Part shown: in pieces, positions 9,764-25,244 of the stretch | Position numbering within the stretch: the stretch's first letter is position 1 | How the letters are laid out: every line of letters starts with the position of its first letter | Source: a virus | IMG/VR virus record: IMGVR_UViG_3300045886_000052 | Coordinates: 1 to 64,000 of that record | Strand: one strand, 5' to 3' | Length of the DNA stretch: 64,000 bases | The notes under the pieces: generated by a model | Database searches by the model: none | What the model was told of the DNA's origin: nothing | The model's input: only the letters and a program-made list of their open reading frames with translations | Translations under genes and position numbers: made by a program

Positions 9764-10063
9764 TCATCCTTCCCCCTTTTCGCCTCTGGCGCGGATCGCT
9801 TGCGCCCCGGTGGCATATGCGCGAATAAAAGTACCGCCTATAGGCGTATGGGGGTCATGCGCCTCGGAAAATTCGTCAAGAATCTTCGCGCACGCCTCCC
9901 GCTCTGCCTCGACGGCCTGCTGCTCGCCTTCGTCCAATCGGGTGAACTCGGCGATGAGGCAGGCGACATCCTCGCTGATTCTGTATTCGGCTAGCCACTC
10001 ACACGCCCGTCTCGCGGCGGCCAGGGATTGCTGGCGCTGTTCAGGTGTTATGGCTTCGCGCAT
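9764..10063 (-). CDS. Small phage protein with EREACAK motif
   Basis: 99 residues. The AVEAEREACAKIL stretch is widespread in small phage proteins of unknown function. Its N-terminus (ITPEQRQQSLAAARR) is echoed in short leader frames upstream of three other genes in this block, so this gene may be their source. It is the last gene of the leftward block, converging with the tail operon. Confidence 0.6.
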   Translation of the reverse strand: MREAITPEQRQQSLAAARRACEWLAEYRISEDVACLIAEFTRLDEGEQQAVEAEREACAKILDEFSEAHDPHTPIGGTFIRAYATGAQAIRARGEKGEG

Positions 10064-10308
10064 AAAACCTCAGTTACGGGTACGTGCTTGTCCGTTACCC
10101 AATCCCAACACGGATTGATTGTCAACCCTCGGCCAAGTCCGAACGGAATAAAGCGCCGTCCTATGTGCTGTCCGCAGCGGTCGCACCTGTAGACAGTGCG
10201 CTGCTCTCCTTTAATCGGGTCAATCGCGCTCAATACCTCTTCGGCGGTGAACTTGTTTTCATTCTTCACATTTCCTCCGGCTAGGGATTGCTGGCGGTCA
10301 GCGGTCAT
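10048..10308 (-). CDS. Small zinc-ribbon-like protein
   Basis: Up to 86 residues with a YRCDRCGQHIG pair suited to zinc binding and a later Cys. Two starts are possible: the ATG at 10308, which overlaps the upstream stop (ATGA), or a GTG about 14 codons later behind GGAGGA. In the second case the first residues (MTADRQQSLA) are only a leader repeat. It overlaps the downstream gene by 16 bases. Function unknown. Confidence 0.55.
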   Translation of the reverse strand: MTADRQQSLAGGNVKNENKFTAEEVLSAIDPIKGEQRTVYRCDRCGQHIGRRFIPFGLGRGLTINPCWDWVTDKHVPVTEVLCAKP

Positions 10309-10568
10309 TCTTCGTCTCTACCGCGAAATTGCTTGATGGCCTCGCGCAGGTCGGACTCGTAGCAGTCGCCACGCCAAGAGTTCTTTCGGCGCTCAATCAC
10401 GCCCTCGCCCAGCAGTTGCCTGTTGAACACGGCGCATTGTCCGCCGCCCTCAAAGACAATGCCCACCATGGGCGTCTTATTCTCCGGGCAGATGAATGTG
10501 GCGACATGAAAGCCTTCGCCCGCTACGCCGTTCCGGTGATAAGCGATTTTCTCAATTTTGATTTTCAT
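10305..10568 (-). CDS. Small hypothetical protein
   Basis: 87 residues, mixed composition, no recognised motif. The ATG lies within the 3' end of a short leader frame (10552-10641), suggesting translation coupled to that leader. It overlaps the next gene by 4 bases (ATGA). Part of the leftward operon that appears to start at operator copy A. Confidence 0.55.
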   Translation of the reverse strand: MKIKIEKIAYHRNGVAGEGFHVATFICPENKTPMVGIVFEGGGQCAVFNRQLLGEGVIERRKNSWRGDCYESDLREAIKQFRGRDEE

Positions 10569-10641
10569 ATTGCCTCTTGCCTCCGGCCAGGGATTGCCGG
10601 CGGGCGTTGGCTAGGGATTGCTGGCGTTGTTCGGGTGTCAT
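10552..10641 (-). CDS. Leader peptide frame with duplicated RQQSLA motif
   Basis: A 29-residue frame starting MTPEQRQQSLANARRQSLAGG. It carries the RQSLA repeat twice and ends 15 bases inside the next gene, whose ATG it overlaps. The motif matches the N-terminus of the 9764-10063 protein and the leaders before two other genes. It may be a coupling leader or a remnant of duplication. Confidence 0.4.
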   Translation of the reverse strand: MTPEQRQQSLANARRQSLAGGKRQYENQN

Positions 10642-10667
10642 AGTTTTAGTCGACGCGGAGGGGAGTT

Positions 10668-10877
10668 TCACCCCTCAACCTGGTTACGCTTATCGAACCT
10701 GGTTCGTAACGCGCGCCGATGTCGCTTGAGCTTTAGCCGCTTCTCAAACTCGCCCGGATGGCATTCAATGAGATGCATAGCCATGCCCAATTCTTGAAAG
10801 AACCGATTGCGGCGCTTCGGACATCCACGCACGGGGCATTGAAAACCTGACCAATTTGTTTGCGCTGCGCATGCCAT
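10668..10877 (-). CDS. C2H2-like zinc-finger small protein
   Basis: 69 residues from an ATG with a good ribosome site (GGAGGAAAGAAC). The core FQCPVRGCPKRR...MHLIECHP has two Cys followed by His and His in a C2H2-like arrangement, and the C-terminus is basic, which suggests nucleic-acid or protein binding. An in-frame ATG at 10946 would add another copy of the DRQQS leader; the internal start is preferred. Confidence 0.55.
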   Translation of the reverse strand: MACAAQTNWSGFQCPVRGCPKRRNRFFQELGMAMHLIECHPGEFEKRLKLKRHRRALRTRFDKRNQVEG

Positions 10878-11013
10878 GTTCTTTCCTCCATTGTTTCTGA
10901 CATCCAGTAAATCCTGGGATTGCTGGCGGTCGGTGGTGGTGGTCATATGGTTTTCAAAGTGAAAGATGCGCCGCCTTCCGGGCCAACGGTAACGCTCTTA
11001 TAGTGCGTCTTTT

Positions 11014-11136
11014 TTACATATGCGGCCAGCAATGAATCTCCTGCGAGAGGCAGGTGAGCGCGAGGCTCTTATCTTCGGCGCTGTCTTTGCTGTTCAGGAT
11101 TTCGGCTTTCTTCTGTTCAAAGTCGGTGATTTTCAT
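11014..11136 (-). CDS. 40-residue hypothetical protein
   Basis: Starts at an ATG 8 bases after AAAGGAG. Charged, probably helical (MKITDFEQKKAEILNSKD). An upstream in-frame GTG has no ribosome site. Too short for a functional call. Confidence 0.5.
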   Translation of the reverse strand: MKITDFEQKKAEILNSKDSAEDKSLALTCLSQEIHCWPHM

Positions 11137-11149
11137 GATTCTCCTTTGG

Positions 11150-11503
11150 TTAGTATCCGCGCTCGTCGCCCGCAACGTCGCGAGTCCGCCAGTCGTTGCC
11201 CTCGTCGTCAATACCAGGAATCTCGGCTGTACCGGCGACCTGCGCGGGCGTGATTGCTTGAGAGGATTGAAATTGGCGAATAGCGTCTTTGACGACCGAG
11301 GCGCCGCGTTCGGCTCTCACGTCAATCGTTCCGTCTGACAGGAACGCTACGAAGCCGTTGTCAATCCAGCCCTTTTTCGCCTGCGTGTTGAATTTGAGAT
11401 AGAGGCGAACGCTCGTTTCTTTCGTCCACAGTTTTGCGCCGTGGTTGTCGTCCGCGTTGATAATTTCCGCTATTGCCTGGGCCGCTTCGATTCTGGTTGC
11501 CAT
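11150..11503 (-). CDS. Hypothetical phage protein, first gene of operon A
   Basis: 117 residues from ATG with ribosome site GGAGGAAAAG. Mixed alpha/beta composition with a KLWTKETSVRLYLKF segment; no catalytic motif seen. It is the first gene downstream of operator copy A (11641-11850), with an 18-bp inverted repeat pair in between. Confidence 0.6.
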   Translation of the reverse strand: MATRIEAAQAIAEIINADDNHGAKLWTKETSVRLYLKFNTQAKKGWIDNGFVAFLSDGTIDVRAERGASVVKDAIRQFQSSQAITPAQVAGTAEIPGIDDEGNDWRTRDVAGDERGY

Positions 11504-11537
11504 TTTCTTTTCCTCCGGTTGTTGTTTCGCTATTTGG

Positions 11538-11638
11538 CAATCAGTAAATCCCACGACCCGATTTTCCCGCAGACCGCGCGAGCCTTGCGACTCTGACCGC
11601 GCTGTCGGTGGTTCCCATTCCGTGGGATTTACTGATTG
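11538..11638. repeat. Inverted repeat pair, 18-bp arms
   Basis: CAATCAGTAAATCCCACG at 11538-11555 and its exact reverse complement at 11621-11638, separated by 65 bases. It lies between operator copy A and the first leftward gene, so the transcript would carry a long-range hairpin in its leader. A similar GGATTTACTG segment appears again near 10905. Confidence 0.7.
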
Positions 11639-11640
11639 TC

Positions 11641-11850
11641 AAACAGCCCTTACGCCGGTATATATAGCAATAGTCATACCGCAGTACGTGGATATAAACC
11701 TAGTGCTGTCAATGCCGCATCGCGGCCCGTTTTCCTATCTATACTATTTGGTACGTAGATTTCGGCCATTTCGGATAAACGTTGATAGCAATAGGGATAG
11801 CTATGCACCAAAACGTATTGCTATTAAACCGTTTGGTGTGATAATTTGCT
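11641..11850 (-). promoter_or_regulatory. Promoter/operator region, copy A
   Basis: First of three related regions (others at 13379-13575 and 14218-14415). It contains the boxes ATACCGCAGTACG, TATTTGGTACGT, CACCAAAACGTATT and AACCGTTTGGTGTGATAATT in the same order as the other copies. A TATAGA -10-like box on the minus strand overlaps the second box. It should drive the genes from 11503 down to 9764. Confidence 0.6.
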
Positions 11851-12075
11851 GACAGCGCCAACCGGACGCCCTACTGGAAGCGGTTCAAACGCTCTCAATT
11901 TAGCCAAGCCGGTCTCGGTCAAAAGTCGTCGCTTGCCGATCAAATAGAAGTCACCGGCCTCTACTGTCAGTGGTTTACCGCGATCCTCGAGCGCTTTGAT
12001 CCGCGAACGGACGGAGCTGCGGCTGGTCAATCCCAGGAGCGCGGCCGCTTGTTCGTAGTTGTATATATTTTCCAT
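11824..12075 (-). CDS. Small helix-turn-helix regulator, copy 1
   Basis: 83 residues. The N-terminal part (YEQAAALLGLTSRSSVRSR) has a helix-turn-helix pattern, followed by a basic C-terminal half. It is nearly identical to the protein at 13550-13801, differing mainly near the C-terminus. It is the last gene of the block driven by operator copy B and sits next to operator copy A. A role as the protein that binds the ACCA-N2-TGGT boxes is an inference from position and duplication. Confidence 0.7.
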   Translation of the reverse strand: MENIYNYEQAAALLGLTSRSSVRSRIKALEDRGKPLTVEAGDFYLIGKRRLLTETGLAKLRAFEPLPVGRPVGAVSKLSHQTV

Positions 12076-12135
12076 AGCTGGATTGTACTCAATTTCCGTA
12101 CCTCGATTTCTCTGTTCGTGCGGCGTGGTCCCATG

Positions 12136-12471
12136 CTAGTACTCCCTCGGTTCATAGCACATTTCGCAGCGGCGAGAAGTGCGGTGTTTCCCGCACGACT
12201 TACAAACGAAAGTTTCAGTGGCTTCGCCCATCGCTATCAATGCTCGCTCCAGGATCGGCACGTTGTGCGCGGCGTCAGCCTGCGCGGCGTCCAATTTCTC
12301 GCGGGCGACTTGCTCGTTTGCGGCCAGGGTGGAATCGAACGCGCCCAACGTCGGCATGGTCACGATCTCCAGGCTGTTGCGCTCTGTCGCCAGCGCGTTG
12401 AGCAGGTCGCGCGCGCTGACCTTGCCCGCCGCGATTCGCTCTTGCAATTTGGTTTCGTTGAGTTGCGCCAT
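12136..12471 (-). CDS. Coiled-coil protein with C-terminal zinc ribbon
   Basis: 111 residues: an alpha-helical N-terminal three quarters and a C-terminal CKSCGKHRTSRRCEMC zinc-ribbon pair. The ribosome site GGGAGGA precedes the ATG. Downstream of a J3-type junction repeat. Function unknown. Confidence 0.6.
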   Translation of the reverse strand: MAQLNETKLQERIAAGKVSARDLLNALATERNSLEIVTMPTLGAFDSTLAANEQVAREKLDAAQADAAHNVPILERALIAMGEATETFVCKSCGKHRTSRRCEMCYEPREY

Positions 12472-12529
12472 TTCATTCCTCCCTTATTCGCGGCCTCGCC
12501 GCAGTTGTGGGGCGTGAGGCCCCGGTAGA

Positions 12530-12757
12530 TTAGTCCTCGTCGTAAATCTTCACGTTATCCATGCCGCGTAATTTCTCTTCTTTCGCTTCCTGAATTGCGC
12601 GGGCGCGAGCCGCTTTCGCCGCAGCGCGTTCTTTGGCCTTCTGCGCGCAAGGCTCGCAGGGGATAGCGTCCGCAGCCCACGGCGTATTTGGCGCGCCGCA
12701 CAGGGTGTGTTGTTCGTAGTTGAACCCGTCTCTGTATTGATGTCTGATTTCCGCCAT
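12530..12757 (-). CDS. Small protein with CxxC and basic helix
   Basis: 75 residues: an N-terminal part with Cys (HTLCGAPNTPW, CEPC) and an Ala/Lys/Arg-rich helix. Ribosome site GGAGGAAGGA. Preceded and followed by J3 junction repeats. The layout resembles small zinc-binding phage proteins of unknown role. Confidence 0.6.
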   Translation of the reverse strand: MAEIRHQYRDGFNYEQHTLCGAPNTPWAADAIPCEPCAQKAKERAAAKAARARAIQEAKEEKLRGMDNVKIYDED

Positions 12758-12824
12758 TTCCTTCCTCCAATTCTCGCGCGGCCCTCGCCGCAGTTATGGG
12801 GCGCGAAGCCCCGGTAGATAACAC

Positions 12825-13010
12825 TTAACCCTCAATGAAAAATGCCGAGTCTCCGTTTTCGTCGTAGGCGTTTACGAATCCGTCGGCAGTGGTTCGCGCA
12901 AGCTCTTTGGCGCGCTCGGTGGCCGCTTTCAGCCCTTCAATGCTCTCTGTTTTTTCTTCGCCGTTGACTTTGTATTTCAATTCGTATTTTCCAGGTTTGG
13001 TAGTTGTCAT
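12825..13010 (-). CDS. 61-residue hypothetical protein
   Basis: Starts MTTTKPGKYELKYKVNGEE behind GGAGGAAAG. Predicted beta hairpin, then helix, then an acidic segment; no family recognised. Lies between two J3 junction repeats. Confidence 0.55.
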   Translation of the reverse strand: MTTTKPGKYELKYKVNGEEKTESIEGLKAATERAKELARTTADGFVNAYDENGDSAFFIEG

Positions 13011-13130
13011 CTTTCTTTCCTCCGTTTCGCGTTGTGAGTTGGGGGCGGTGAGGCCCCGGTGGATTGCTACTTGATTTTGTAACTCGCTGCACGCTCCGGC
13101 ATCGTTCGCGGCGAGAGGCCCCGGTGGACC

Positions 13131-13337
13131 CTAGAAAATGCAGTGCCATTTTTGTTCAATCACCACGTCGGCGTAGCGATCCAGCGTCGCTTGGTCTTCC
13201 TGCGACTGGCCTGGCCCGAACATTCCGCGCATGTTTGCGACCGTGAAATACTCACGCACCTGTTTCTCTGACTCAAACCGATCGCCATTGGCGAATCCGG
13301 TTGAGTCGTTAATCTCGTCAAAATCACTTCGTGGCAT
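13131..13337 (-). CDS. 68-residue hypothetical protein, first gene of operon B
   Basis: ATG with ribosome site GGAGGAAACG. Acidic and polar, ending VIEQKWHCIF. It is the first gene downstream of operator copy B (13379-13575) and is followed by a J3 junction element. Confidence 0.55.
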   Translation of the reverse strand: MPRSDFDEINDSTGFANGDRFESEKQVREYFTVANMRGMFGPGQSQEDQATLDRYADVVIEQKWHCIF

Positions 13338-13378
13338 GTCGTTTCCTCCGATTATCGCGCGGCGTCATTGCCGCTGCG

Positions 13379-13575
13379 ATACTTATTACTAAGCAATCAG
13401 CGTACCACGGTACGCAAGTATAAACTCAATAGAATCAGCGCGGGGTATTGCGCCATTCTGACCGCTACACCATTTGGTACGTGAATTTTGGACATTTCCG
13501 GTAAACGCTGAGAATAAAAGGCTTATCAATACACCAAATGGTACAGCATTTATACCATTACGTGCGATAATTTAG
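13379..13575 (-). promoter_or_regulatory. Promoter/operator region, copy B
   Basis: Carries GTACCACGGTAC (perfect 5-bp arms around AC), ACCATTTGGTACGT, CACCAAATGGTAC and ACCATTACGTGCGATAATT in the same order as copies A and C. The -10-like region next to the second box is weaker here. It should drive the genes from 13337 down to regulator copy 1. Confidence 0.6.
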
Positions 13576-13801
13576 ACGTAGAGCCAAGCGGACGCCCTGC
13601 CGGCAGCGGCTCGAACGCTCTCAGACGGGCCAAGCCGGTCTCAGTCAAAAGCCGCCGCTTGCCGATCAAATAGAAGTCACCGGCCTCTACTGTCAGTGGT
13701 TTACCGCGATCCTCGAGCGCTTTGATCCGCGAACGGACGGAGCTGCGACTGGTCAGTCCCAGGAGAGCTGCAGCTTGTTCGTAGTTGTATATGTTTTCCA
13801 T
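13550..13801 (-). CDS. Small helix-turn-helix regulator, copy 2
   Basis: 83 residues, nearly identical to copy 1 at 11824-12075; the differences cluster in the last 25 residues. It starts at the ATG at 13801, since the conserved first residues MENIYNYEQ begin there; the longer open frame upstream is not shared. Last gene of the unit driven by operator copy C and adjacent to operator copy B. Confidence 0.7.
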   Translation of the reverse strand: MENIYNYEQAAALLGLTSRSSVRSRIKALEDRGKPLTVEAGDFYLIGKRRLLTETGLARLRAFEPLPAGRPLGSTSKLSHVMV

Positions 13802-13854
13802 AGCTGGATTGTACTCAATTTCCGTACCTCGGGCCGATGCCCCGTGGGTTGCTC

Positions 13855-14175: not shown

Positions 14176-14217
14176 TTTCTTTTCCTCCGTTGTTGTTTCG
14201 TTTTCAATTCCAACTGA

Positions 14218-14415
14218 CACTTATTACTAAGCAATTGTCATACCACAGTATGCGCGTATAAGTCCAATGCTGCCAACGCTGCATTTCAGCTTGTCTCGGC
14301 AATTATACCACTTGGTACGTGAGTTTCAACTGGTTACGCTAAATGCTAGAAACAATAGAGATATGAATACACCAAAACGTATTACCATTAAACCATTTGG
14401 TGTGATAATTGAAAA
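14218..14415 (-). promoter_or_regulatory. Promoter/operator region, copy C
   Basis: Best-preserved of the three copies: ATACCACAGTATG, ACCACTTGGTACGTGA, CACCAAAACGTATT and AACCATTTGGTGTGATAATT. The minus-strand promoter at 14302-14329 overlaps the second box. The copy lies between divergent units, the leftward operon from 14175 and the rightward SWIM gene at 14535. Confidence 0.65.
14302..14329 (-). promoter_or_regulatory. Sigma70-type promoter of operon C
   Basis: On the minus strand TTGAAA (14329-14324) is followed after 16 bases by TATAAT (14307-14302). The operator box ACCAAGTGGT overlaps the spacer and the -10, so a bound repressor would block it. Confidence 0.65.
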
Positions 14416-14492
14416 AGAGCGATAACTGGCGCGCCGTAAGCATTGATATAGCAAGAGATATATTTCGGTACAATGGTACGCTGATTGCTTGG

Positions 14493-14498
14493 TATAAT
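14493..14498 (+). promoter_or_regulatory. -10 box of the SWIM gene promoter
   Basis: TATAAT 36 bases before the SWIM ATG, preceded by TACAATGGTACG, which resembles operator half-sites; no good -35 is visible. The gene may be activated or repressed from these boxes. Confidence 0.45.
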
Positions 14499-14534
14499 AG
14501 CGTAGTTGATAACCAGAAAGGGAAGGGAATAGCA

Positions 14535-14897
14535 ATGATCAAACTCGAAAGCAAAACAATGACGAAGGCGATTGAAAGAGCCAAAGCAATCCACCCGAAA
14601 GTGCGCGTAATCAGCGCAACTGATCGGGTGTACGCCGTGACTGGCAGCCGGGGCAACGCTTACACCGTGCGCTTCGTCGTCGCGAACGGCCTGAAGCTCG
14701 GCTCGTGCGACTGCCCGGCGGGCCAGCGCGGTCAAATGTGCTACCACGTAGCAGCTGGGGCGGCCGTGAATATCGGCATCCAGGGAATGCGGCAAGGGGC
14801 TCCGGCCCCTGTCGCGCCGCGGATCGTTCGCAGCGTCGAGCGAGATCAATCTGGCGCGCGGGTGGCCGTAGCTCGCTGTGATAATTGGGTAGTCTGA
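14535..14897 (+). CDS. SWIM-type zinc-finger protein, copy 1
   Basis: 120 residues. It contains CDCPAGQRGQMCYH, a C-x-C-x8-C-x-H SWIM-type zinc motif that binds DNA or protein in known families. The N-terminal half (TKAIERAKAIHPKVRV) and the last residues (RCDNWVV) are shared with the protein at 50696-51064. Starts at an ATG behind GGAAGGGA. A stand-alone SWIM protein, not part of a Swi2/Snf2 helicase. Confidence 0.75.
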   Translation: MIKLESKTMTKAIERAKAIHPKVRVISATDRVYAVTGSRGNAYTVRFVVANGLKLGSCDCPAGQRGQMCYHVAAGAAVNIGIQGMRQGAPAPVAPRIVRSVERDQSGARVAVARCDNWVV

Positions 14898-15015: not shown

Positions 15016-15249
15016 ATGAATATCATTTCCAAGTTTATGGCCGACAACATCGAAAGCGCGATTCTGGAAGACTTGAAAGCGAATCCCGGCTGGCAATGCG
15101 AGAGTATGATTCACCAACGGATATGTGGCGGTGGCGTTTGGGAGCACTTCCCAGAAACATTCTCGGCATTGGTCAAACTCAAGGAGGAAGGGAAGATAAA
15201 ATCCAGTGGCAACAACGGATTCAATTCTTTCGCTTTCAAACTGGCATAG
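15016..15249 (+). CDS. Possible winged-helix small protein
   Basis: 77 residues from an ATG behind AAGGAGACTT. The pattern of three helices followed by GKIKSSGNNGFNSFAFKL could be a small winged-helix DNA-binding fold, but no family is recognised. It is followed by a strong terminator. Confidence 0.5.
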   Translation: MNIISKFMADNIESAILEDLKANPGWQCESMIHQRICGGGVWEHFPETFSALVKLKEEGKIKSSGNNGFNSFAFKLA

Positions 15250-15563: not shown

Positions 15564-15611
15564 AGCGTCGAGCGGGTTAAGGTCGTGCGGGGCGATAACT
15601 GGGTGGTTTAG
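15564..15611 (+). pseudogene. Remnant of a SWIM protein C-terminus
   Basis: The plus strand encodes SVERVKVVRGDNWVV then a stop, closely matching the end of the SWIM protein at 14535-14897 (RSVER...RCDNWVV). Nothing of the N-terminal or zinc region remains. It sits between two leftward genes, so it is a leftover of an earlier rearrangement or duplication. Confidence 0.6.
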
Positions 15612-15931
15612 GCCAGGTCGCTGTTCGGTTCGGTTGGCCACGTCTCGCTCTCTCTGACCCGTTCCACCATGAGAGCATGCCCGGCTTCGGCATCTTCCCG
15701 GGTAGTGTATCGCTCGCATTCCTCATCCAACGTTCCACCAAACACCATTGTCTCGAACAGTATTGGCGCGCCGATCCCACTGAGGTTATGGAGAAAAACC
15801 GTGCTGATCGTGACACCGTTGATTTCGTCCAGCGCTACGAGTCGGTTTTCGGCTTGTGCTAGTCGGCTCCATTCTATTGCGCCATGGCACCGCTTTGGCG
15901 TATGCCCGTCTAAGATATATGAGTCGCCCAT
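15608..15931 (-). CDS. Conserved phage hypothetical protein
   Basis: 107 residues from an ATG behind GGAGGAAGC. The start (YILDGHTPKRC), the FETMVFGG segment and the EDAEAGHALMVERV end are the pattern of a common phage family of unknown function. It belongs to the J4-repeat block. Confidence 0.7.
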   Translation of the reverse strand: MGDSYILDGHTPKRCHGAIEWSRLAQAENRLVALDEINGVTISTVFLHNLSGIGAPILFETMVFGGTLDEECERYTTREDAEAGHALMVERVRESETWPTEPNSDLA

Positions 15932-15966
15932 GCTTCCTCCATTCCACCACGCGGGCCGGGGCGGGG

Positions 15967-16233
15967 TTATTGGCATTTCGTCTCAGTGTGGCAAGGACAC
16001 GAAGGCGACTCGCATCCTTCGCTTACTACGTTTGGCGCGTTAGACCAACCGCTTTTCTCGCATCCGCAGCGCCAGCAAAATTCAGGCTGAGTGTCCGAGC
16101 CGACCTTACCTATCACCAACAGCCTTACATATCCGACGCCTTCACGCGACTCATGCGGATGGCCCTTTGCCTCTTCTACGGTTCCGGCGTGGAACTCGTT
16201 GCAGTGAACGCAGGGTGTAAACGTTTCTTTCAT
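15967..16233 (-). CDS. Cys-rich zinc-binding small protein
   Basis: 88 residues with three Cys clusters (CVHCNEFH, CWRCGC, CESPSCPCH). Ribosome site GGAGAGAAC. It ends in Gln-stop inside a J4 repeat. Function unknown; the Cys pattern suggests at least two zinc sites. Confidence 0.6.
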   Translation of the reverse strand: MKETFTPCVHCNEFHAGTVEEAKGHPHESREGVGYVRLLVIGKVGSDTQPEFCWRCGCEKSGWSNAPNVVSEGCESPSCPCHTETKCQ

Positions 16234-16275
16234 GTTCTCTCCATATCCGCCGCATCCGATAAGACGCGGGCCGGG

Positions 16276-16473
16276 TTATATCCGTTCCGCTTCGGCGATC
16301 TGTTCAGCGTATCCGTTGGCGATAGCCCATTCAGTAACAGACGGGCCTCCGTCCCATGTTGTGTGGTCGTCTGGCGGCGCTTCTCGGTCTAGCCGTGCAA
16401 CTTGTTCAAATTCACCGTTGGTGACGAGGTAAAAATCAACCACGTTACCACGGTCATCAACTTCGTATGTCAT
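16276..16473 (-). CDS. 65-residue hypothetical protein
   Basis: Acidic protein with a predicted beta start (MTYEVDDRGNVVDFYLV) and a helical end. ATG behind GAAGGA. Flanked by J4 junction repeats. No family recognised. Confidence 0.55.
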   Translation of the reverse strand: MTYEVDDRGNVVDFYLVTNGEFEQVARLDREAPPDDHTTWDGGPSVTEWAIANGYAEQIAEAERI

Positions 16474-16503
16474 TCCTTCACCTAAGACGCGGGCCGGGTG
16501 GGG

Positions 16504-16836
16504 TTATTGCTTGCGCTGTGAATAGCAAGCAGCGGCAATGGCGCTCACCTGCTCGAACACTGGGTACATTTCTGGCGACAGAGATAGATGCGCGCGATCC
16601 ATCAACGTTTTCCAGAGTGTTAGCCGCTGCCTGTGCGAGAGGTAGAACCCGTCTTCGTCCCGCGGCTCCTGATAACGCTGCACCACGTCGGCTAGGAATT
16701 GGCGCTCAAACTCGTTAAACGCTATAGATGTTGCAAAGTCGGGATTTTCGATTAGCCATGTAAGCAGCTGCACCTCAATGGCTGTCACCGGGACATAATG
16801 CGACCAGTCGAGTCGCGGGCGTTCGTTACTGCTCAT
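16504..16836 (-). CDS. Helical hypothetical protein
   Basis: 110 residues from an ATG behind GAGGTAAGAG. Mostly helical (NEFERQFLADVVQRYQEP), no catalytic motif. It ends in Gln-stop within a J4 repeat. Confidence 0.55.
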   Translation of the reverse strand: MSSNERPRLDWSHYVPVTAIEVQLLTWLIENPDFATSIAFNEFERQFLADVVQRYQEPRDEDGFYLSHRQRLTLWKTLMDRAHLSLSPEMYPVFEQVSAIAAACYSQRKQ

Positions 16837-16887
16837 TCTCTTACCTCTATTAAGCCATATCCGCCGCATCCGAAGACGCGGGCCGGG

Positions 16888-17241
16888 TTATTGCTTGCGA
16901 AAATCGTAAATCTCAATTCCGGCGCGCTGGGCTTCTTTGTACATATTGGCAGTTCCACGCCCGCCAGGGAATAATGCCACGGCGTCGGCGTATCCAGCCA
17001 TTTGCCGGTTTCTTCTTGGCCCCGCCGATTTACCAAAATGTTCCCATTCGGCGCAGAAGCGTTTAACAGGGATGCCATGCTTGCGCGCCCACTCTTCGCC
17101 ACATTTATCCACACCAGAAGCGCCGCCGGAAACCACTTCTTCAATGGGCGCCACGAAACGGCTGAGCCGCAATTCGTCAAGCAGGGCAATATCGGCATCT
17201 GTGAATTGATAGTCTCTACCGCCTGCGATGATCAATTTCAT
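16888..17241 (-). CDS. SLOG-family (DUF2493-like) protein
   Basis: 117 residues. The motifs IIAGGRDY, VVSGGASGVD, WARKHGIPV and the AGPRRNRQM segment are those of the DUF2493/YspA-type SLOG domain, a Rossmann-like fold proposed to bind nucleotide-derived ligands. ATG behind GGAAGGTAT. It follows the tyrosine recombinase and ends in Gln-stop within a J4 repeat. The ligand here is unknown. Confidence 0.75.
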   Translation of the reverse strand: MKLIIAGGRDYQFTDADIALLDELRLSRFVAPIEEVVSGGASGVDKCGEEWARKHGIPVKRFCAEWEHFGKSAGPRRNRQMAGYADAVALFPGGRGTANMYKEAQRAGIEIYDFRKQ

Positions 17242-17260
17242 ATATACCTTCCGGGTCGGG

Positions 17261-18091
17261 TTATTGCGCTTTCAGTTTAGATGCCAGTTCGCGCCCCTTC
17301 GTCGGATGCGCGTACAGCCCCGTCGTTGCGATGCTGGCATGCCCCACGATCTCGCTCACGTCGGCTAATGGCGCGTTCTCGGCCAGCAGGTGTGAGACGA
17401 AGGCATGTCGGAATTGATGGGGATGAGCGCCTTCAACGCCTGCCGCCTTTCCTGCCGCCTTCACGATCTTCCATGCGTTCTGCGGTGTGAAAGGGAAGGG
17501 GTGATCCTTGTCCCCGGCATTGCCCCGCATCGCTATCAAGTCCCGCCACAGTTCAGCCGACAAATACACCGTCCGTCTTTTCCCGCCCTTGCCTAAAATA
17601 TGCGCCTCGCCGCCGTCTTCCATTGGTCGCAGATCGCACCAGCGCAAGCCCAAAACCTCGCTGATTCGCGCGCCGGTCAGGTACAGAAACTTCAACAGCG
17701 CATGGTGTAGGGGATCGGCTGCCGTGGCTGCAATAATGGCGCGAATCTGTTCCGGCGTAAGCAATGCGCCGTGGTCGACGGAGCGGTCCATCTTCGCGCG
17801 CTCGATCCGCGCCAAGTTGATCGCCGTTACCTCTCGGTTGTTCAGGAAGCGGTAGAAACTGCACACGCTGGCCAGCTTTCGCGCGCGGGTTTTCTCTGCG
17901 CCGTATTCGTCCGCCAGGAACGATTGATAATCCATTATGTCGGCGGTGATGATCTGATCGAACGGCTTGCGTGTATGGGCCAGGAATGCCTTGATGTCGG
18001 CGCGATAGGCGATTGCGGTGTGCTGGCTTCGCCGTTTGCCGGTCGGTTTCAGCCATTCCGCGATCCAGAAATCAACATCTTCGATGTTCAT
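17261..18091 (-). CDS. int: Tyrosine recombinase/integrase
   Basis: 276 residues with a SAM-like N-terminal DNA-binding half and a complete catalytic set: Arg142 (GARISEVLGL), Lys168 (ILGKGGKRR), His225 and Arg228 (HPHQFRHAF), His251 (GHASIATTG) and nucleophile Tyr260 (GLYAH). Length and spacing are those of XerC/D-type and simple phage integrases. It sits inside the small-gene array, not beside the switch region, and its 3' end carries the J4 repeat. It could integrate the phage, resolve dimers or act on the array repeats. Confidence 0.9.
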   Translation of the reverse strand: MNIEDVDFWIAEWLKPTGKRRSQHTAIAYRADIKAFLAHTRKPFDQIITADIMDYQSFLADEYGAEKTRARKLASVCSFYRFLNNREVTAINLARIERAKMDRSVDHGALLTPEQIRAIIAATAADPLHHALLKFLYLTGARISEVLGLRWCDLRPMEDGGEAHILGKGGKRRTVYLSAELWRDLIAMRGNAGDKDHPFPFTPQNAWKIVKAAGKAAGVEGAHPHQFRHAFVSHLLAENAPLADVSEIVGHASIATTGLYAHPTKGRELASKLKAQ

Positions 18092-18133
18092 ATAATTCTC
18101 GTTATATCACGGCGTCGAATTTTACACGCTTTA

Positions 18134-18860: not shown

Positions 18861-18867
18861 ATTCCCC

Positions 18868-19053
18868 TCACGCCTCCGCGTCTGCATCGGATTGCTGCGC
18901 GAATCTTGCGCACCTGCAATCTCGATGCGCGCAACTTTCGTCTTCATCGTATCCGCCAAGGTGTTCCGATAGTTTGTGTCCGCAGTCGCATGTCATACCT
19001 ACTGCCTCGGCGTAACTGTTGAACCCTTCGTCTTTCCAATTGAACGCGCTCAT
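18868..19053 (-). CDS. Cys/His-rich small protein
   Basis: 61 residues from the ATG inside a J1 junction (GGAGGGGAAAGAATG). The CDCGHKLSEHLGG...CAHRDCRCARF pattern matches that of the protein at 33365-33622 (CQCEHNLLSHEHY...CKCDYF), a small zinc motif seen in phage proteins. It ends SDADAEA, the J1-encoded tail. The frame is also open upstream to 19287. Confidence 0.6.
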   Translation of the reverse strand: MSAFNWKDEGFNSYAEAVGMTCDCGHKLSEHLGGYDEDESCAHRDCRCARFAQQSDADAEA

Positions 19054-19287
19054 TCTTTCCCCTCCGCGTCCGCACGCATAGTCTCTACGGTGTTGCCTGA
19101 GCGTTCGTCCCTGGCGCTTCAATCTACGCCTTACGCTTTCAACGAACTTGTTCGCCTCTTCGCGCGTGTTGAACTTCTGGTGATGGCGAACCCCGGACTT
19201 GAAACCGCTGCTTCCAGCAATTTGATAACTCGCGCCAGCCGTAGCATACAGCCCCGGTGATAGAGAGTACCCTTTGGGGATAGCCAC
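18868..19287 (-). CDS. Alternative longer reading: two cassettes fused in frame
   Basis: From a GTG at 19287 the frame encodes MAIPKGYSLSPGLYATAG, then a HHQKFNTREEANKFVES segment that looks like a genuine domain, and reads through the J1 junction without a stop into the 18868-19053 gene (139 residues). At the other J1 junctions the element is read in the frame that ends in GKE-stop. Either this is a fusion protein or the upstream part is a damaged or overlapping gene. Confidence 0.4.
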   Translation of the reverse strand: MAIPKGYSLSPGLYATAGASYQIAGSSGFKSGVRHHQKFNTREEANKFVESVRRRLKRQGRTLRQHRRDYACGRGGERMSAFNWKDEGFNSYAEAVGMTCDCGHKLSEHLGGYDEDESCAHRDCRCARFAQQSDADAEA

Positions 19288-19409
19288 GAAAAAGTGTTCC
19301 CGTTCCAGTCGTCAAAAATAAACTCATGGCAGCGGCGACAGTTGCCCGACCACTTGCTACCGGAACGCCAGCCAGCGGCGCGCAGTATTTTATATTGCTC
19401 AGTTGTCAT
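19131..19409 (-). CDS. Small zinc-ribbon protein
   Basis: 92 residues from the ATG in a J1 junction. CRRCHEFIFDD and YHRGCM could form a four-ligand zinc site in the first 60 residues. The C-terminal third overlaps another plausible frame (19287 leftward) and has atypical composition, so the true end may be altered by a frameshift. Confidence 0.5.
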   Translation of the reverse strand: MTTEQYKILRAAGWRSGSKWSGNCRRCHEFIFDDWNGNTFSWLSPKGTLYHRGCMLRLARVIKLLEAAVSSPGFAITRSSTRAKRRTSSLKA

Positions 19410-19629
19410 TCTTTCCCCTCCGCGCCCCTCGCCGCGACTCAAGAATCTTCTCGTATGCCCGCCGCCACGCCTGCGCCGCCGTATTGCCGCTCGCAAATCG
19501 CGGTGAGCCGGGTTCCAGTTTGACGAAAAACCGTGTCGGCAACGAAGTGGTATGTACAATTGGAAACCTGGAGCACACGGCACGTGGATACAATTCCAAG
19601 ACCAGTCTTTTGTCCGCGCCGCCTCTCAT
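19399..19629 (-). CDS. Hypothetical basic protein
   Basis: 76 residues starting at the ATG of a J1 junction. The C-terminal NTAAQAWRRAYEKILESRRGA is a basic helix. It overlaps both neighbours by a few bases. No family recognised. Confidence 0.5.
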   Translation of the reverse strand: MRGGADKRLVLELYPRAVCSRFPIVHTTSLPTRFFVKLEPGSPRFASGNTAAQAWRRAYEKILESRRGARRGKNDN

Positions 19630-19796
19630 TCTTTCCCCTCCGCGTCTGCGTCAACCGACAACGGTGAATGCTCGTCACACCGCACGGTTGATTCATAACT
19701 GGCGCGTCCGCACAGTATCCATGCCGTTTCGCCCTTGACGGTTCGCGTTATCCAGCAAATACCGTTTTCGTCTCGCTCGTGTCTGGGTTCGTTCAT
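19626..19796 (-). CDS. Small protein ending in the J1 tail
   Basis: 56 residues from an ATG behind AAAGGGGAAG. A CWITR and RCDEHSP Cys pair, then the J1-encoded C-terminus VDADAEGKE. The stop overlaps the next ATG (ATGA). An upstream in-frame ATG has no ribosome site. Confidence 0.5.
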   Translation of the reverse strand: MNEPRHERDENGICWITRTVKGETAWILCGRASYESTVRCDEHSPLSVDADAEGKE

Positions 19797-19996
19797 GCTT
19801 CCCCTTTGTCGCACTTGCTATTCAAGCAGCGCCACCAGCCGCCCTTGCCACCGCAGTTGCCACACTCTTCCACTTCGCCGGGGAAACAGTTGATCGGATC
19901 GTCTTCGTAGGCGTCGAAGTACCCGTCGTCGCACCCGCTCCAACAGTCAACCCAATCCATCCCACAGCCGCATGCATTACAGTGTGGCTCTAGCAT
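19793..19996 (-). CDS. DnaJ-type zinc-ribbon small protein
   Basis: 67 residues with CNACGCG, CWSGCDDG and CGNCGGKGGW pairs, the Cys-x2-Cys-Gly repeats of phage zinc-ribbon proteins. Starts at the ATG of a J1 junction and ends on the next ATG (ATGA). Probably a nucleic-acid or partner-binding adaptor; function unproven. Confidence 0.65.
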   Translation of the reverse strand: MLEPHCNACGCGMDWVDCWSGCDDGYFDAYEDDPINCFPGEVEECGNCGGKGGWWRCLNSKCDKGEA

Positions 19997-20235
19997 TCTT
20001 TCCCCTCCGCATCTGCGTCAACCTCTTCTAAGCGTCCAAGCCTGTCGGCAATGATGTCCAGAATAATGCCGATTTCAGAATCTTCGATATTCATCTGCTC
20101 TTCCATCCGCTCACACAGCGCATTGAACAAGTCCGCCGCTGGTAGCCTTCTGAAGTATTCGGCTTCTTCCAGATTGGTTATCAGCCGATTGGCCCACGCT
20201 GCGTCGTATTGTCGGTTAAATTCTTCGTCCGTCAT
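19990..20235 (-). CDS. Helical hypothetical protein with J1 tail
   Basis: 81 residues, mainly helical (MTDEEFNRQYDAAWANRL), ending EEVDADAEGKEC. The J1 element supplies these last residues and the next gene's ribosome site. ATG behind TTGGAGGCGG. Confidence 0.55.
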   Translation of the reverse strand: MTDEEFNRQYDAAWANRLITNLEEAEYFRRLPAADLFNALCERMEEQMNIEDSEIGIILDIIADRLGRLEEVDADAEGKEC

Positions 20236-20272: not shown

Positions 20273-20476
20273 TTATGTGCAAGTATTTTTCTCCGCGTCT
20301 GCGTCATCTGGAAATTCCATAAACGCTTCAGGCGGCAAATCGTCAGGGTCGAACGGCTCGTCGCAGACACACGACGTAAGCGGCTCGTCGCATTCGTAGC
20401 ACCAAACGCTTTCGTCCGCTTCCAGCCAGTCGTCCTCTTCGAGTTCAATTTGTCCATCGTATGCGATCAGGCTCAT
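20273..20476 (-). CDS. Acidic Cys-rich protein (MSLIA family, copy 1)
   Basis: 67 residues. The first 19 (MSLIAYDGQIELEEDDWLE) nearly match the start of the 20691-20903 protein, after which the two diverge; here two Cys pairs (CYECDEP, CVCDEP) follow. It ends DDADAEKNTCT, a shifted version of the J1 tail. ATG in a J1 junction. Confidence 0.55.
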   Translation of the reverse strand: MSLIAYDGQIELEEDDWLEADESVWCYECDEPLTSCVCDEPFDPDDLPPEAFMEFPDDADAEKNTCT

Positions 20477-20694
20477 TCTTTCCCCTCCACGTCTGCGTCA
20501 ACCGCTACCCACTCCCCATCAAGTGAGTTCTTTAGTTTATCAATCAGCGCCAGAACGGTCGAAGGCGGATAGTATTTACTGCCGTAATTCGGTCTTCTGG
20601 CGTCTTTTTCGAGTTGTTTGAGTTCGCGCTCGTTAAACTCTTTAAGTTCCACTTCGAGTTGGGCCAGCAGTTCTTGCTTAGTCACCGTGCTCAC
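20473..20694 (-). CDS. Coiled-coil small protein with J1 tail
   Basis: 73 residues from a GTG that overlaps the upstream stop. The N-terminal half is a strongly charged helix (LLAQLEVELKEFNERE), and the last residues VDADVEGKE come from J1. Function unknown. Confidence 0.55.
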   Translation of the reverse strand: MSTVTKQELLAQLEVELKEFNERELKQLEKDARRPNYGSKYYPPSTVLALIDKLKNSLDGEWVAVDADVEGKE

Positions 20695-20903
20695 CCCTTA
20701 TTAACGCTGCGTCGAAAGTCGCGCGCCCACTCTTCCGCCATTTCCCGCGTGTAACATTCCATGCGCATATGGTCGCCGGGCATTAGACACTCACCGGAAA
20801 AGTCGCAGCCCCATTGGTATTCTTCGTAGCCATCCGGTTCGTGTTCATCTAACCAGTCGTCCTCTTCGAATTCGATTTGTCTGTCGTGTGCTATTAAGCT
20901 CAT
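20691..20903 (-). CDS. Acidic protein (MSLIA family, copy 2)
   Basis: 70 residues, sharing MSLIAHDRQIEFEEDDWL with the 20273-20476 protein but with an unrelated C-terminal part (HMRMECYTREMAEEWARDF). ATG behind GAAGGAG. The pair suggests exchange of C-terminal halves behind a fixed N-terminus. Confidence 0.55.
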   Translation of the reverse strand: MSLIAHDRQIEFEEDDWLDEHEPDGYEEYQWGCDFSGECLMPGDHMRMECYTREMAEEWARDFRRSVNKG

Positions 20904-20905
20904 GT

Positions 20906-21112
20906 TTACTCCTTCGGGGCGGCGTCAATGCCAGCCGCCCTGACGAATGCGGCAACGGCTTCGGCTTCGTCTGGCGTTTCTATCACCCGTTGCTGTAGTC
21001 CGGTATTTCTATCGGTGTAAACCACCCATTGATTCTCGCCGTTGTCCCACTCAAGCCATACGTAGTCCGTGGCAAGCCAGGTGTCCAGTTTGAGCAAGTC
21101 GAGAATGGTCAT
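20906..21112 (-). CDS. Hypothetical protein
   Basis: About 68 residues; the GTG at 21115 or the adjacent ATG at 21112 can start it, both coupled to the upstream TGA. Acidic with a Trp-rich start (DTWLATDYVWLEWDNG), beta then helix. No family recognised. Confidence 0.5.
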   Translation of the reverse strand: MTILDLLKLDTWLATDYVWLEWDNGENQWVVYTDRNTGLQQRVIETPDEAEAVAAFVRAAGIDAAPKE

Positions 21113-21348: not shown

Positions 21349-21554
21349 CTTTCCTCCCCCTCAATCGCGCCGGGTTGCTGCGGTTGCGTGTCTTTCGCTT
21401 GTACGTCAACGCTGTTAATCATCACAACGTCGGCCTCGCCTATAACGGCGTCTAAGTCGTATTCGGCCCAGCCTTGCGCCTCTTCTGGCGAATCAGCTTC
21501 GACATTAGACTTGTATTCAAACTGTCCGCGAATCGTTACTTGATATTGGCTCAC
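21345..21554 (-). CDS. Small protein, DpnD/PcfM-like pattern
   Basis: 69 residues from a GTG behind GAGGAGAAAAG. YQVTIRGQFEYKSNVEADSP followed by EEAQGWAEYDL is the strand-helix pattern of a small family often found in phages and plasmids. Overlaps the coiled-coil gene upstream by 38 bases. Confidence 0.55.
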   Translation of the reverse strand: MSQYQVTIRGQFEYKSNVEADSPEEAQGWAEYDLDAVIGEADVVMINSVDVQAKDTQPQQPGAIEGEER

Positions 21555-22713: not shown

Positions 22714-22739
22714 AATTCCCTTTCCTCCGGCTGTGACGG

Positions 22740-23204
22740 CTAGCGTTTCCGCTTCTGTTCTGCTTGCCAGTCCCGCATGATTTCGTAACTGTATTTGTGG
22801 CTTTCGACGAACCGCTTGAACTCCTGAAGACCTTCGAGCGACATGGCAAGTTCGCGGTGTTTGATCTGTCTCACGGCGCCATCTTCAACTACCAGCACGC
22901 CGTTATCGTCCGTTTCTTCGCCTGAGTAATTCACTGATCCGCTCAGCGTGACACCGTGCGGCGTCAGTACGTTATCGATGAGGTATTGCAACCACTCCAC
23001 GTACTCGTAAAACTTCTCACCGTAATCCCATTCGATCCCTCGACAATCTTTCGTCAATTGCCATTGGCAGTATCCGCCTGGCGCATTCGGATCTTCCATT
23101 TTCCTGCCGTCGATACCTTCAAGCTCGCGCAACCGCACGATAGCTTCAGCGGGCGGCAGTTTGTCTAAGTCAAATCGTCCGTGAAATCTTGTCGTATATC
23201 CCAT
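22740..23204 (-). CDS. Conserved phage hypothetical protein (MGYTT family)
   Basis: 154 residues. The start MGYTTRFHGRFDL, the segment YCQWQLTKDCRGIEWDYGEKF and the YVEWLQYLID helix are those of a family common in phage genomes, without known function. ATG close after GAAAGGAAAT. Confidence 0.75.
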   Translation of the reverse strand: MGYTTRFHGRFDLDKLPPAEAIVRLRELEGIDGRKMEDPNAPGGYCQWQLTKDCRGIEWDYGEKFYEYVEWLQYLIDNVLTPHGVTLSGSVNYSGEETDDNGVLVVEDGAVRQIKHRELAMSLEGLQEFKRFVESHKYSYEIMRDWQAEQKRKR

Positions 23205-23219
23205 TGTTGAATTTCCTTT

Positions 23220-23324
23220 CTATGCTGCTTCTTCCACGGTGGAACCGGTTGCACGCCGCAATTTCTCGCGCAGTTCCACGATGGCGTAAAACTGATTCAC
23301 GGCCTCTTGCGAGTAGTAGGCCAT
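23220..23324 (-). CDS. 34-residue hypothetical peptide
   Basis: Starts MAYYSQEAVNQFYAIVELRE, one charged helix. Ribosome site weak. A longer version from 23429 overlaps the upstream gene by 95 bases and is less likely. Confidence 0.35.
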   Translation of the reverse strand: MAYYSQEAVNQFYAIVELREKLRRATGSTVEEAA

Positions 23325-23334
23325 ATACCTATGT

Positions 23335-23574
23335 TTACTGCTTCGCTTCCCGTTGCTGGAGATCGCAGGTTGCCGGGTGAAAAGCTTCCAGCCCGCCTTG
23401 GTTGATCTCCATTTGAGGCGGGCATGCATTGCGCGTTCGTCCGTCTCGCTGCTGTGAGAGCGCTTCCGCCCTCGCCTCGGCTTCGCGCAGTTGCGCTTCG
23501 AGTTCGGCTATGCGGGCGTTGGCAGCGTCCAACTCTACTTGCGTGTCAATTAAGTCAAAGTATTCAGCGCTCAT
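23335..23574 (-). CDS. Coiled-coil small protein
   Basis: 79 residues with an N-terminal helix (NARIAELEAQLREAEARAE) similar to a segment of the 398-residue coiled-coil protein, including AEALSQQRDG, then a short Cys-containing end. ATG behind AGAGGGAAC. Probably a duplicated fragment of the larger gene. Confidence 0.5.
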   Translation of the reverse strand: MSAEYFDLIDTQVELDAANARIAELEAQLREAEARAEALSQQRDGRTRNACPPQMEINQGGLEAFHPATCDLQQREAKQ

Positions 23575-23586
23575 AGTTCCCTCTTT

Positions 23587-23898
23587 CTATTCCGCGTCCG
23601 GCTGCGCGCCCGGCGCGGTGGTTGTGGCAAAGCCGGGTCCAGTCTCAAGACTGACGCGCAATGCGTTGAGTAGCCGGCACAAGCAGTTGCGGCATATATC
23701 GGGCGGACCGCCGAAGCCGGCTGGGTGATCCGTAAAGGACAATACCGGCCGGACCACCAGTTTGCATTGCTTTACGACTGGAAGAATATTGCCGGGGCTC
23801 GCCGAGTTGTATTCCTCGCCTATATGTTGGACGACCTCGACCCGCGCGGCGAGGTCCCACGCAGGTTCTTCACAAAGATCGCAAAATACTTTTTTCAT
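23587..23898 (-). CDS. Zinc-binding small protein
   Basis: 103 residues with CDLCEEP at the start and CRNCLCR later, consistent with one zinc site joining the two ends. ATG behind AAAGGAAA. No family recognised. Confidence 0.55.
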   Translation of the reverse strand: MKKVFCDLCEEPAWDLAARVEVVQHIGEEYNSASPGNILPVVKQCKLVVRPVLSFTDHPAGFGGPPDICRNCLCRLLNALRVSLETGPGFATTTAPGAQPDAE

Positions 23899-23912
23899 AT
23901 TTTCCTTTCTGG

Positions 23913-24185
23913 TTATGCCGCGTCCGGCTGAGTGTTCAGCATTTCAAACTGAGTGCCGATCGCGTTGTTAATCAGTCGAGCAAGGTTGCGATCTTCGTCG
24001 TTGACAATTCCCTGCCCGGTGCGAATGAACGATATAAGCCACGTCTGCCGCGCTTCAGCGTCGTCAGCTTGCATTCTGAACTCGCCTTTAGCCGCCTGAG
24101 TCAGCATGCTTAAATGGGCCAGTGCGATCATGGTTTGCTCGTCTGAGTCAGCCAGCAATAATGGCGGCCTTGTTTTGTTTGTCAC
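23913..24185 (-). CDS. Helical hypothetical protein
   Basis: 90 residues from a GTG behind AAGGAGAG. Entirely helical (DEQTMIALAHLSMLTQAAKG). Overlaps the upstream gene's end by 38 bases. No family recognised. Confidence 0.5.
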   Translation of the reverse strand: MTNKTRPPLLLADSDEQTMIALAHLSMLTQAAKGEFRMQADDAEARQTWLISFIRTGQGIVNDEDRNLARLINNAIGTQFEMLNTQPDAA

Positions 24186-24549
24186 TCTTTCTCTCCTTGC
24201 AAAGTAGTCCGGCCATTTCCAGCGCCGTCCAGTTGAAGTAGCCGGCCAGCGAGTGAACTGAGTTGTCAGCCGTGGTCTTATCCGGCTTGCGGCTGAGTAC
24301 CCAGAGATACGAAACCCCATACTCAGTTTCCGCGATACTATAGCCCCGCATACGGCGGATCAGATAGCCCGACCGCTTCCGGCTTCGCTTCCATTTCGAC
24401 CGTTCGTAAACAATGCCCCGCTGAGCACTCAGTTGGACGACATTATCTTTGTTTGCAGCCGGTTGCGATTTCGCCACCTGACGTTTCGCCCGGCTGACCG
24501 GAACCACTTTCAGCGACGCCGCTGAGTGTTCAGTTACCGCCTCAGCCAC
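24148..24549 (-). CDS. Basic hypothetical protein
   Basis: About 133 residues from a GTG inside the end of a tiny membrane-peptide gene; the frame is open much farther upstream but without a good start. The centre (KWKRSRKRSGYLIRRMRGY, then SIAETEYGVSYLWVLSRK) is strongly basic, suggesting nucleic-acid binding. Start uncertain. Confidence 0.45.
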   Translation of the reverse strand: MAEAVTEHSAASLKVVPVSRAKRQVAKSQPAANKDNVVQLSAQRGIVYERSKWKRSRKRSGYLIRRMRGYSIAETEYGVSYLWVLSRKPDKTTADNSVHSLAGYFNWTALEMAGLLCKERKSDKQNKAAIIAG

Positions 24550-24626
24550 GCTATCAGCAGCAGCACCGCGAGCGCGAATAGTACTTCCCAAACTAGGGAG
24601 CGGGTGATTATTTTGTGTCTGAGCAT
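24534..24626 (-). CDS. 30-residue membrane peptide
   Basis: The ATG follows the upstream stop directly and has GGAGGGG 6 bases before it, a far better ribosome site than the overlapping larger frame. It encodes MLRHKIITRSL, then a hydrophobic helix (VLFALAVLLLIAW), then RR. Single-pass peptide; it follows a multi-pass membrane protein. Confidence 0.5.
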   Translation of the reverse strand: MLRHKIITRSLVWEVLFALAVLLLIAWLRR

Positions 24627-25244
24627 TTACCCCTCCCCCTGGCCTTTTGGGTCTCGGTCGCTCCGCGCAAACCCGGCAACGGGCGCCGCCGGCAACGCGG
24701 ATGTCGCCTTCGACTTCAGCACGCCTTTCAACTCCTGCTCCCGCACGGCTGATAGGGTAGAGACGGTATTGATCCTCATCTTCGAGCGAACGTCGAGCAG
24801 GATAATCCCGGCCCACGTCAGCAGCGTAGCGCCGAGGACGAGGACGGGAAGGCCGTTCGATTGATAGAAGTCGCCGAAGCCGTCCAGGTATCCGAATAGA
24901 TTCTTTCTGAAGTTCAGCGCGCAGTGAAAGAGCAGGATAGTGTAGGTGACGGCGTCACCGGCCAGGCCGATCCATTTCTGCGCGTTCGTTGTGAAGAGCA
25001 GAAAGTGGCAGACGATCAGCGCGATTAAACTGCCCTCCACGCAGCCTACCGCCATGAACGCGTTGAGGTAGGCGCCCTTCCCCGCTCTGTCGCCGCCGGC
25101 TAAATCAAAGAACAAATGCCAGGAGTGGTAGGCGAGAAAAAGACTTGTCAGGATTACGAAGATGATCCCGATTCCGAGAAGTTTGTTTGAATTTTCAAGC
25201 TGGCTCTCGGCCTCTCCGAGAACGTCATTGATGTTTGTTTTCAT
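24627..25244 (-). CDS. Multi-pass membrane protein
   Basis: 205 residues with about four hydrophobic segments near residues 23-43, 60-85, 95-112 and 130-150, and a basic cytoplasmic tail. ATG behind AAGGGAAGGGAG. It could be a holin-like or superinfection-related protein, but no family is recognised and it is not next to a lysis enzyme. Confidence 0.55.
   Translation of the reverse strand: MKTNINDVLGEAESQLENSNKLLGIGIIFVILTSLFLAYHSWHLFFDLAGGDRAGKGAYLNAFMAVGCVEGSLIALIVCHFLLFTTNAQKWIGLAGDAVTYTILLFHCALNFRKNLFGYLDGFGDFYQSNGLPVLVLGATLLTWAGIILLDVRSKMRINTVSTLSAVREQELKGVLKSKATSALPAAPVAGFARSDRDPKGQGEG

Follow-up and report, generated by a model that had tools for sequence, protein, structure and literature searches.

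The viral record IMGVR_UViG_3300045886_000052 (G000) is 68,079 b long, and the 64,000 nt of it that are analysed here, called the window, contain an array of small leftward genes (9764-25244, minus strand). In four blocks of this array, J1 to J4, a private sequence of 15-35 bp is repeated at the successive gene borders of each block, and two minor families of two copies each are found besides. These junction repeats are read here, at even confidence, as scars of serial gene addition through short-homology or illegitimate recombination. The array region itself is best explained as an accessory, quickly changing gene zone of a temperate soil phage. The gain of single small genes by phages, often genes with anti-host or anti-defence roles, has so far largely been inferred from mosaic comparisons, and serial block-specific border scars, together with a cargo gene that is displaced in a sister phage, make this region one in which the acquisition of genes one by one can be followed and put to the test. 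They also call for caution, as a border shared between unrelated genes need not imply a site-specific cassette system.

Junction repeats at the gene borders

The four blocks lie at 10.0-10.94 kb (J2), 12.49-13.13 kb (J3), 15.93-17.27 kb (J4) and 18.87-20.93 kb (J1). When segments from -60 to -13 relative to the start codons are compared pairwise at distances of up to 3 kb, 18 border pairs reach a score of 12 or more; windows inside the genes give 2, 2 and 1 such pairs, and shuffles give 0.05 on average. The four junction families are confirmed at the places where a first-pass annotation of this DNA had put them. In an ungapped search of the whole window, compared with dinucleotide shuffles, the J1 core occurs in five copies (0.02 expected), the J2 core in four (0.08 expected) and the J3 core in four (0.12 expected), and all copies of each core are within its own block. 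The J4 core is weaker in this search (2 against 0.28 expected) because its five related borders differ by indels.

The J1 repeat (GGTTGACGCAGACGCGGAGGGGAAAGAATG) is formed by the last codons of the upstream gene, which encode VDADAEGKE, the Shine-Dalgarno sequence and the ATG of the next gene, and the stop and start codons usually overlap. Its five strong copies are all on the minus strand. The copy at 19625-19657 has the VDADAEGKE tail, the Shine-Dalgarno sequence and the ATG; the others are at 19992-20024, at 20472-20504, where the likeness goes on through the first 22 codons of the gene downstream and is shared with gene 20691-20903, at 19405-19437, which is in another reading frame of the upstream gene, and at 19049-19081, which is non-coding and located upstream of gene 18868-19053. 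The core is thus inside the upstream coding sequence in four copies, one of them out of frame, and non-coding in one. Because of these last two copies, the identity is one of DNA and not of peptide, and conservation of the tail at the peptide level is ruled out. Degenerate J1 copies are found at 20899-20931, 20278-20310 and about 18861-18890.

J2 is largely coding. Its motif, TPEQRQQSLA, is the N-terminus of gene 9764-10063, which has homologs in the cousin phages G003, G012, G013 and G014 and therefore encodes a real protein; the G003 homolog itself starts with the motif. The J2 copy at 10007-10056 is within the 5' end of this gene, and the remaining copies, by their appearance, would be partial copies of that 5' end. 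They are located at 10279-10308, before gene 10048-10269, at 10585-10640, where the repeat is doubled and stands both before gene 10305-10568 and in the downstream flank of cargo gene 10668-10877, and at 10916-10940, upstream of the same cargo gene (all on the minus strand).

J3 and J4, also on the minus strand, begin near the stop codon and end immediately ahead of the Shine-Dalgarno sequence. The J3 copies at 12494-12530, 12783-12819 and 13028-13064 precede genes 12136-12471, 12530-12757 and 12825-13010, respectively, and a partial copy at 13108-13125 follows gene 13131-13337. J4 is found as a variant at 15932-15967 (before gene 15608-15931), at 16241-16282 (before gene 15967-16233), in a shortened form at 16474-16515 (before gene 16276-16473), at 16855-16899 (before gene 16504-16836) and as a diverged copy at 17242-17270, between the tyrosine recombinase gene and a YspA-like gene. 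A hairpin with a UUCG loop is formed in only two of the five J4 copies, and for most junctions folding gives no gain over shuffled sequences, with z-scores mostly near 0, so RNA structure is ruled out as a conserved property of the junctions. The junctions had been annotated as identical intergenic repeats. Their intergenic nature holds for J3 and J4 and fails for J1, with its core coding in four of five strong copies, and for most of J2; identity does not hold, as the degenerate J1 copies and the indels in J4 make clear.

The minor families are J5, with copies before 21348 and before 21112, and J6, with copies before 23898 and before 23574. The conserved gene 23913-24187 ends in ..AGCCGGACGCGGCATAA and its counterpart in the sister phage G011 (IMGVR_UViG_3300049024_000030) ends in ..GAGTCGGACGCGGCGTGA. 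In G000 a copy of the end sequence of 23913-24187 is also present at the end of the next gene, of which no homolog is found in G011.

Cargo genes and related phages

The array contains about 43 leftward open reading frames (ORFs), organized in several operons, and two rightward ones at 14535-14897 and 15016-15249; the earlier count of about 45 tiny leftward genes is slightly lowered. The median length is 79 aa, and 39 of the leftward ORFs do not exceed 130 aa. The product of 14535-14897 (plus strand), which is located between leftward blocks, has a SWIM-like CxC...CxH pattern (CDCPAGQRGQMCYH). The suggestion that many cargo proteins have zinc-type Cys pairs, as many small anti-host proteins do, is not supported: at least two C-x2-4-C/H pairs are present in 7 of 43 proteins, slightly above the 3.8 expected from residue shuffles and barely over chance (the maximum in 500 shuffles is 8), and at least one pair is present in 16, against 12.9 in shuffles, with no family match. 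Among the array proteins tested, the only Pfam matches above cut-off are to YspA and integrase domains.

Proteins within a block are non-homologous, except for one 22-residue N-terminus and the tails encoded by the repeats, which upholds the earlier observation of different cargo between junctions. Whole-gene paralogy within blocks was sought and not found, save for that N-terminus and a pair of helix-turn-helix (HTH) genes.

The closest relative, the twin G001, is 99.99% identical and colinear across the part covered. G011 keeps a series of anchors in order, namely a methyltransferase, a membrane gene, a homolog of 24148-24534, the tyrosine recombinase (78%), the HTH gene (53%) and a tail gene. 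The small genes common to G000 and G011 are only the 24148-24534 homolog, HTH, coiled-coil segments and one displaced gene. G018 shares only the recombinase (80%) and a weak membrane-gene match, and in G006 the position after the tail gene is occupied by other genes. An automated border scan finds no comparable repeats in G011, G016, G006, G003, G009, G005, G018 and G019; visual inspection of G011 adds a single GC-rich border repeat, present in two copies after the recombinase (1438-1470 and 1957-1990), which the scan missed because it is farther from the start codon. Since the sisters share the anchors and not the cargo, and no comparable repeats were detected in them, cargo turnover is nearly complete and takes place mostly without junction repeats.

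The J1 sequence has no exact match in 2.9 million viral contigs, and a J4 20-mer is found there only in G001, so the junction repeats are private to G000 and its near-identical twin. In the comparison of related phages and the metagenomic search of the repeats, both proposed with the first-pass annotation, no gain or loss of genes at a junction was seen, the twin was colinear, comparable repeats were not detected in the sisters, and J1 and J4 had no wider occurrence. Homologs of 22740-23204 and of the HTH protein, sought in viral contigs, are present only in G001 or not at all. A search for portal homologs in prokaryote genomes returned only distant prophages and no host.

The displaced gene is 10668-10877 (minus strand), which stands between two J2 copies. 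Its G011 homolog (81% aa identity) is at 47545-47748, without J2, and its surroundings there are syntenic with the window at about 31-32 kb. DNA similarity between the two is 79% and extends from the ATG to about 20 bases beyond the stop codon, past a 3' stem-loop (about 10656-10676) that covaries, with arms GAGGGG/CTCCCC in one phage and GAAGAG/CTCTTC in the other. This gene is the best single piece of evidence for cargo moving as a gene-sized unit.

Origin of the junctions

In the addition model, new small genes would be added one by one beside an existing gene, and each addition would leave or copy a short stretch of the border, made of the last codons, the spacer and/or the Shine-Dalgarno sequence, so that every block would end up with a private direct repeat of its own, left as a scar. 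The likely agent would be short-homology or illegitimate recombination, probably with help from the phage's annealing protein of the Redβ type. Where the border provides a stop codon and a ribosome-binding site, it would be tolerated, and the new gene would be expressed at once. That the additions created the repeats, and that Redβ carried them out, is what we infer from several observations. The repeats sit at borders and the J1, J2 and J3 cores are each confined to their block; the cargo between copies is unrelated and turned over almost totally between sisters; 10668-10877 is displaced; J1 is kept at the DNA level; and G000 has a gene for a Redβ/Bet single-strand annealing protein (34482-35297, plus strand; TIGR01913, 104 bits against a cut-off of 77). 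λ Red is able to recombine diverged DNA (PMC2327257). J6 may also fit this model, with the end of a conserved gene apparently copied at the end of the next G000 gene.

Several points weigh against the addition model. No insertion or deletion is seen at any junction, the sole close relative, G001, being colinear, and no ancestor with a single J copy and no cargo is found for J1-J4. G011 provides a weakly similar single counterpart for J6 only, in a comparison based on about nine shared bases. Gene conversion at a later stage may account for the likeness of the borders, and the sister phages turn over their cargo without detectable repeats, so the repeats are not required for it.

A stronger form of the model, quite unlikely in our view, takes the junctions as live annealing sites at which Redβ-type recombination adds, loses or swaps single genes, so that the blocks are recombinase-independent cassette platforms with their own address sequences. 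The original proposal that genes were inserted or swapped at the repeats is supported in part by the differing cargo of the sisters, the displaced gene and the presence of Redβ, and is not supported in that the sisters exchange cargo without the repeats and no two of the compared phages were found to hold different cargo at one and the same junction. Among the closest known systems, a precedent for the addition model is gene 14 of Corndog, in the Cluster O mycobacteriophages, which has a 17-bp direct repeat on both sides that is single-copy in relatives (PMC4351075). Corndog gene 14 is likewise a small gene between two repeat copies at its borders, for which recombination between the repeats is the proposed route, and a gene flanked in this way is found here in 10668-10877, with J2 on both sides, and in other cases. 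They differ in that the empty single-copy site is seen in the relatives of Corndog, whereas here the copies are serial in four blocks and no empty J1-J4 site is found.

The repeats could instead be functional start-associated or intercistronic signals, for translation coupling or the binding of a phage factor, that are kept by selection, as proposed for the SAS and ESAS sequences of Cluster K mycobacteriophages; similar motifs are known in the Microbacterium phage clusters EC, EF, EG and EI (PMC3203893, PMC7302621). J1, which spans the Shine-Dalgarno sequence and the ATG with overlapping stop and start codons, is what such a signal would look like, and in both systems a short repeat directly precedes many small non-structural genes that belong to unrelated families. 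SAS, however, is one motif per genome, at the ribosome-binding sites of many genes and kept among relatives, whereas the sequences in the window are four distinct ones, each placed differently with respect to the start codon. Three of them have block-confined cores; they are seen in G000 and its twin and not in the border scans of the sisters, and they mostly fold no better than shuffles. We therefore consider a signal function unlikely.

Tandem duplication of a gene with its border, followed by divergence of the coding part beyond recognition, would explain why genes 20691-20903 and 20273-20476 share a border and their first 22 codons, and the HTH gene has clearly been duplicated together with its promoter. 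The unrelated cargo within blocks means that simple duplication and divergence fails to explain most of it: the other in-block proteins have no similarity, a YspA family protein shares J4 with unrelated proteins, and non-coding borders normally diverge faster than genes. This origin is distinctly unlikely. A junction that itself spreads, whether carried from border to border by gene conversion or acting as a very small mobile regulatory element, the claim made for PeSLs, would account for one homogeneous sequence per block between unrelated genes; it is very unlikely, as the junctions contain no promoter (9 promoter-like sites are found against 9.8 expected, none of them in a junction), have no conserved stem-loop and have no copies outside their block. 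The PeSL promoter/stem-loop cassettes of T4-type phages (Arbiol 2010 and Comeau 2014, as cited in PMC4503421) are, in that citing account, intergenic repeats said to mediate modular gene shuffling, and as described there they differ from the present junctions in having the promoter and the stem-loop. On the same description, the PeSL idea is matched more closely by the duplicated HTH/promoter units (11.74-12.1 and 13.47-13.83 kb) than by the junctions.

The array had also been presented as a phage counterpart of gene-cassette arrays, and a Xer-type tyrosine recombinase (17261-18091, minus strand), which lies as a conserved anchor between the J4 and J1 blocks and is kept in three sister phages (78-80% identical in G011 and G018), could in principle insert and remove cassettes at the junctions. 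As in integrons, a tyrosine recombinase is close by, and the short sites that separate the different genes resemble one another. However, the protein scores 88.7 bits with TIGR02249, against an integron-integrase cut-off of 265, and 51.8 with PRK15417, against 435; its best profile is XerD, itself under its cut-off. No structured attC-type site follows each gene, the J4 stem being formed in two of five copies and J1 and J2 being largely coding. A dif-like site, ATAA-N6-TTAT (18088-18107, minus strand, motif at 18092), is the sole one in the window; it lies upstream of where the recombinase gene starts, and none of the junctions contains it. The motif also occurs once in G011 (266-279) and once in G018 (8103-8116), in both at the start of the recombinase gene, while in G019 one copy (7313-7326) is about 600 b upstream of the recombinase and a second is elsewhere. 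It is most likely the recombinase's own site, and its position suggests that the protein is a phage integrase whose dif-like attachment site adjoins the start codon of its gene. As G018 moreover has the recombinase and detectably no junction repeats, integron-like recombination is extremely improbable and is rejected here.

Regulatory units and other elements

The HTH unit is a 367-bp segment with a gene of 83 aa and its promoter/operator, present in two copies on the minus strand, at 13465-13831 (copy 1, gene 13550-13801) and 11739-12105 (copy 2, gene 11824-12075), which are 85% identical in DNA and 91.6% in protein. A third promoter/operator copy, at 14216-14410 (minus strand), has no HTH gene, and palindromes of the type TACCNNNNGGT(A) recur in these units. 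They would split J2, J3 and the upstream blocks into operons and are likely to form a shared regulatory circuit. An inverted repeat, AATCAGTAAATCCCAC ... GTGGGATTTACTGATT, is located at 11540-11640 in the leader before gene 11150-11503, and a similar element is kept in a cousin phage (L005, 9520-9636), where it adjoins a gene with the J2 motif.

G000 also has genes for a terminase, a portal, a GP7-like capsid protein, a tape measure, a tail fibre and a large serine recombinase (26308-27864). The ends of the record repeat 127 b, which points to a circular or complete molecule of 67,952 b; a repeat of exactly 127 b is also present in G011 and may be an assembler overlap.

The region 23913-24534 (minus strand) has an iterated ACTCAG motif, and the syntenic gene of the sister phages has a different one. 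In each of four phages the strongest hexamer cluster falls in the syntenic pair of genes that follows the membrane gene: ACTCAG in G000 (n=8), ATTCAC in G011 (11; 55.4-56.1 kb), GGAGCA in G006 (14; L014, 6.05-6.65 kb) and CCCCAA in G018 (12; L104, 3.05-3.65 kb), with single-test Poisson values of about 1e-13 to 1e-22. Homology of the iterated-motif gene is clear only between G000 and G011. The layouts are palindromic, which suggests that a dimeric DNA-binding protein binds there, possibly at an origin, partition locus or operator, and that it changed together with its sites. A structure prediction of the gene product was of low confidence (pLDDT 45) and was not used.

CRISPR-like arrays, which were noticed because they dominated the hexamer scan, are found on relatives: in G016 (1-800) and G018 (44.6-46.0 kb, inside the contig) with 36-nt repeats, and in G019 (66.1-66.7 kb), where the repeat is probably ..CCCTATAGGATTGAGC... 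An Rfam scan returned no family at gathering score, including for 30850-31950, a stretch of about 1.1 kb without clear genes in which no tRNA is found either. This stretch has recurring (T)TCGATCTTTTACA units, which makes an array of small RNAs possible, and its part at about 30980-31100 is conserved in G011 near 47.2-47.3 kb (region about 46.9-48.6 kb). A 41-bp repeat (95%) is present at 42982-43022 and 43238-43278, inside the overlapping neighbour genes 42788-43150 and 43113-43433.

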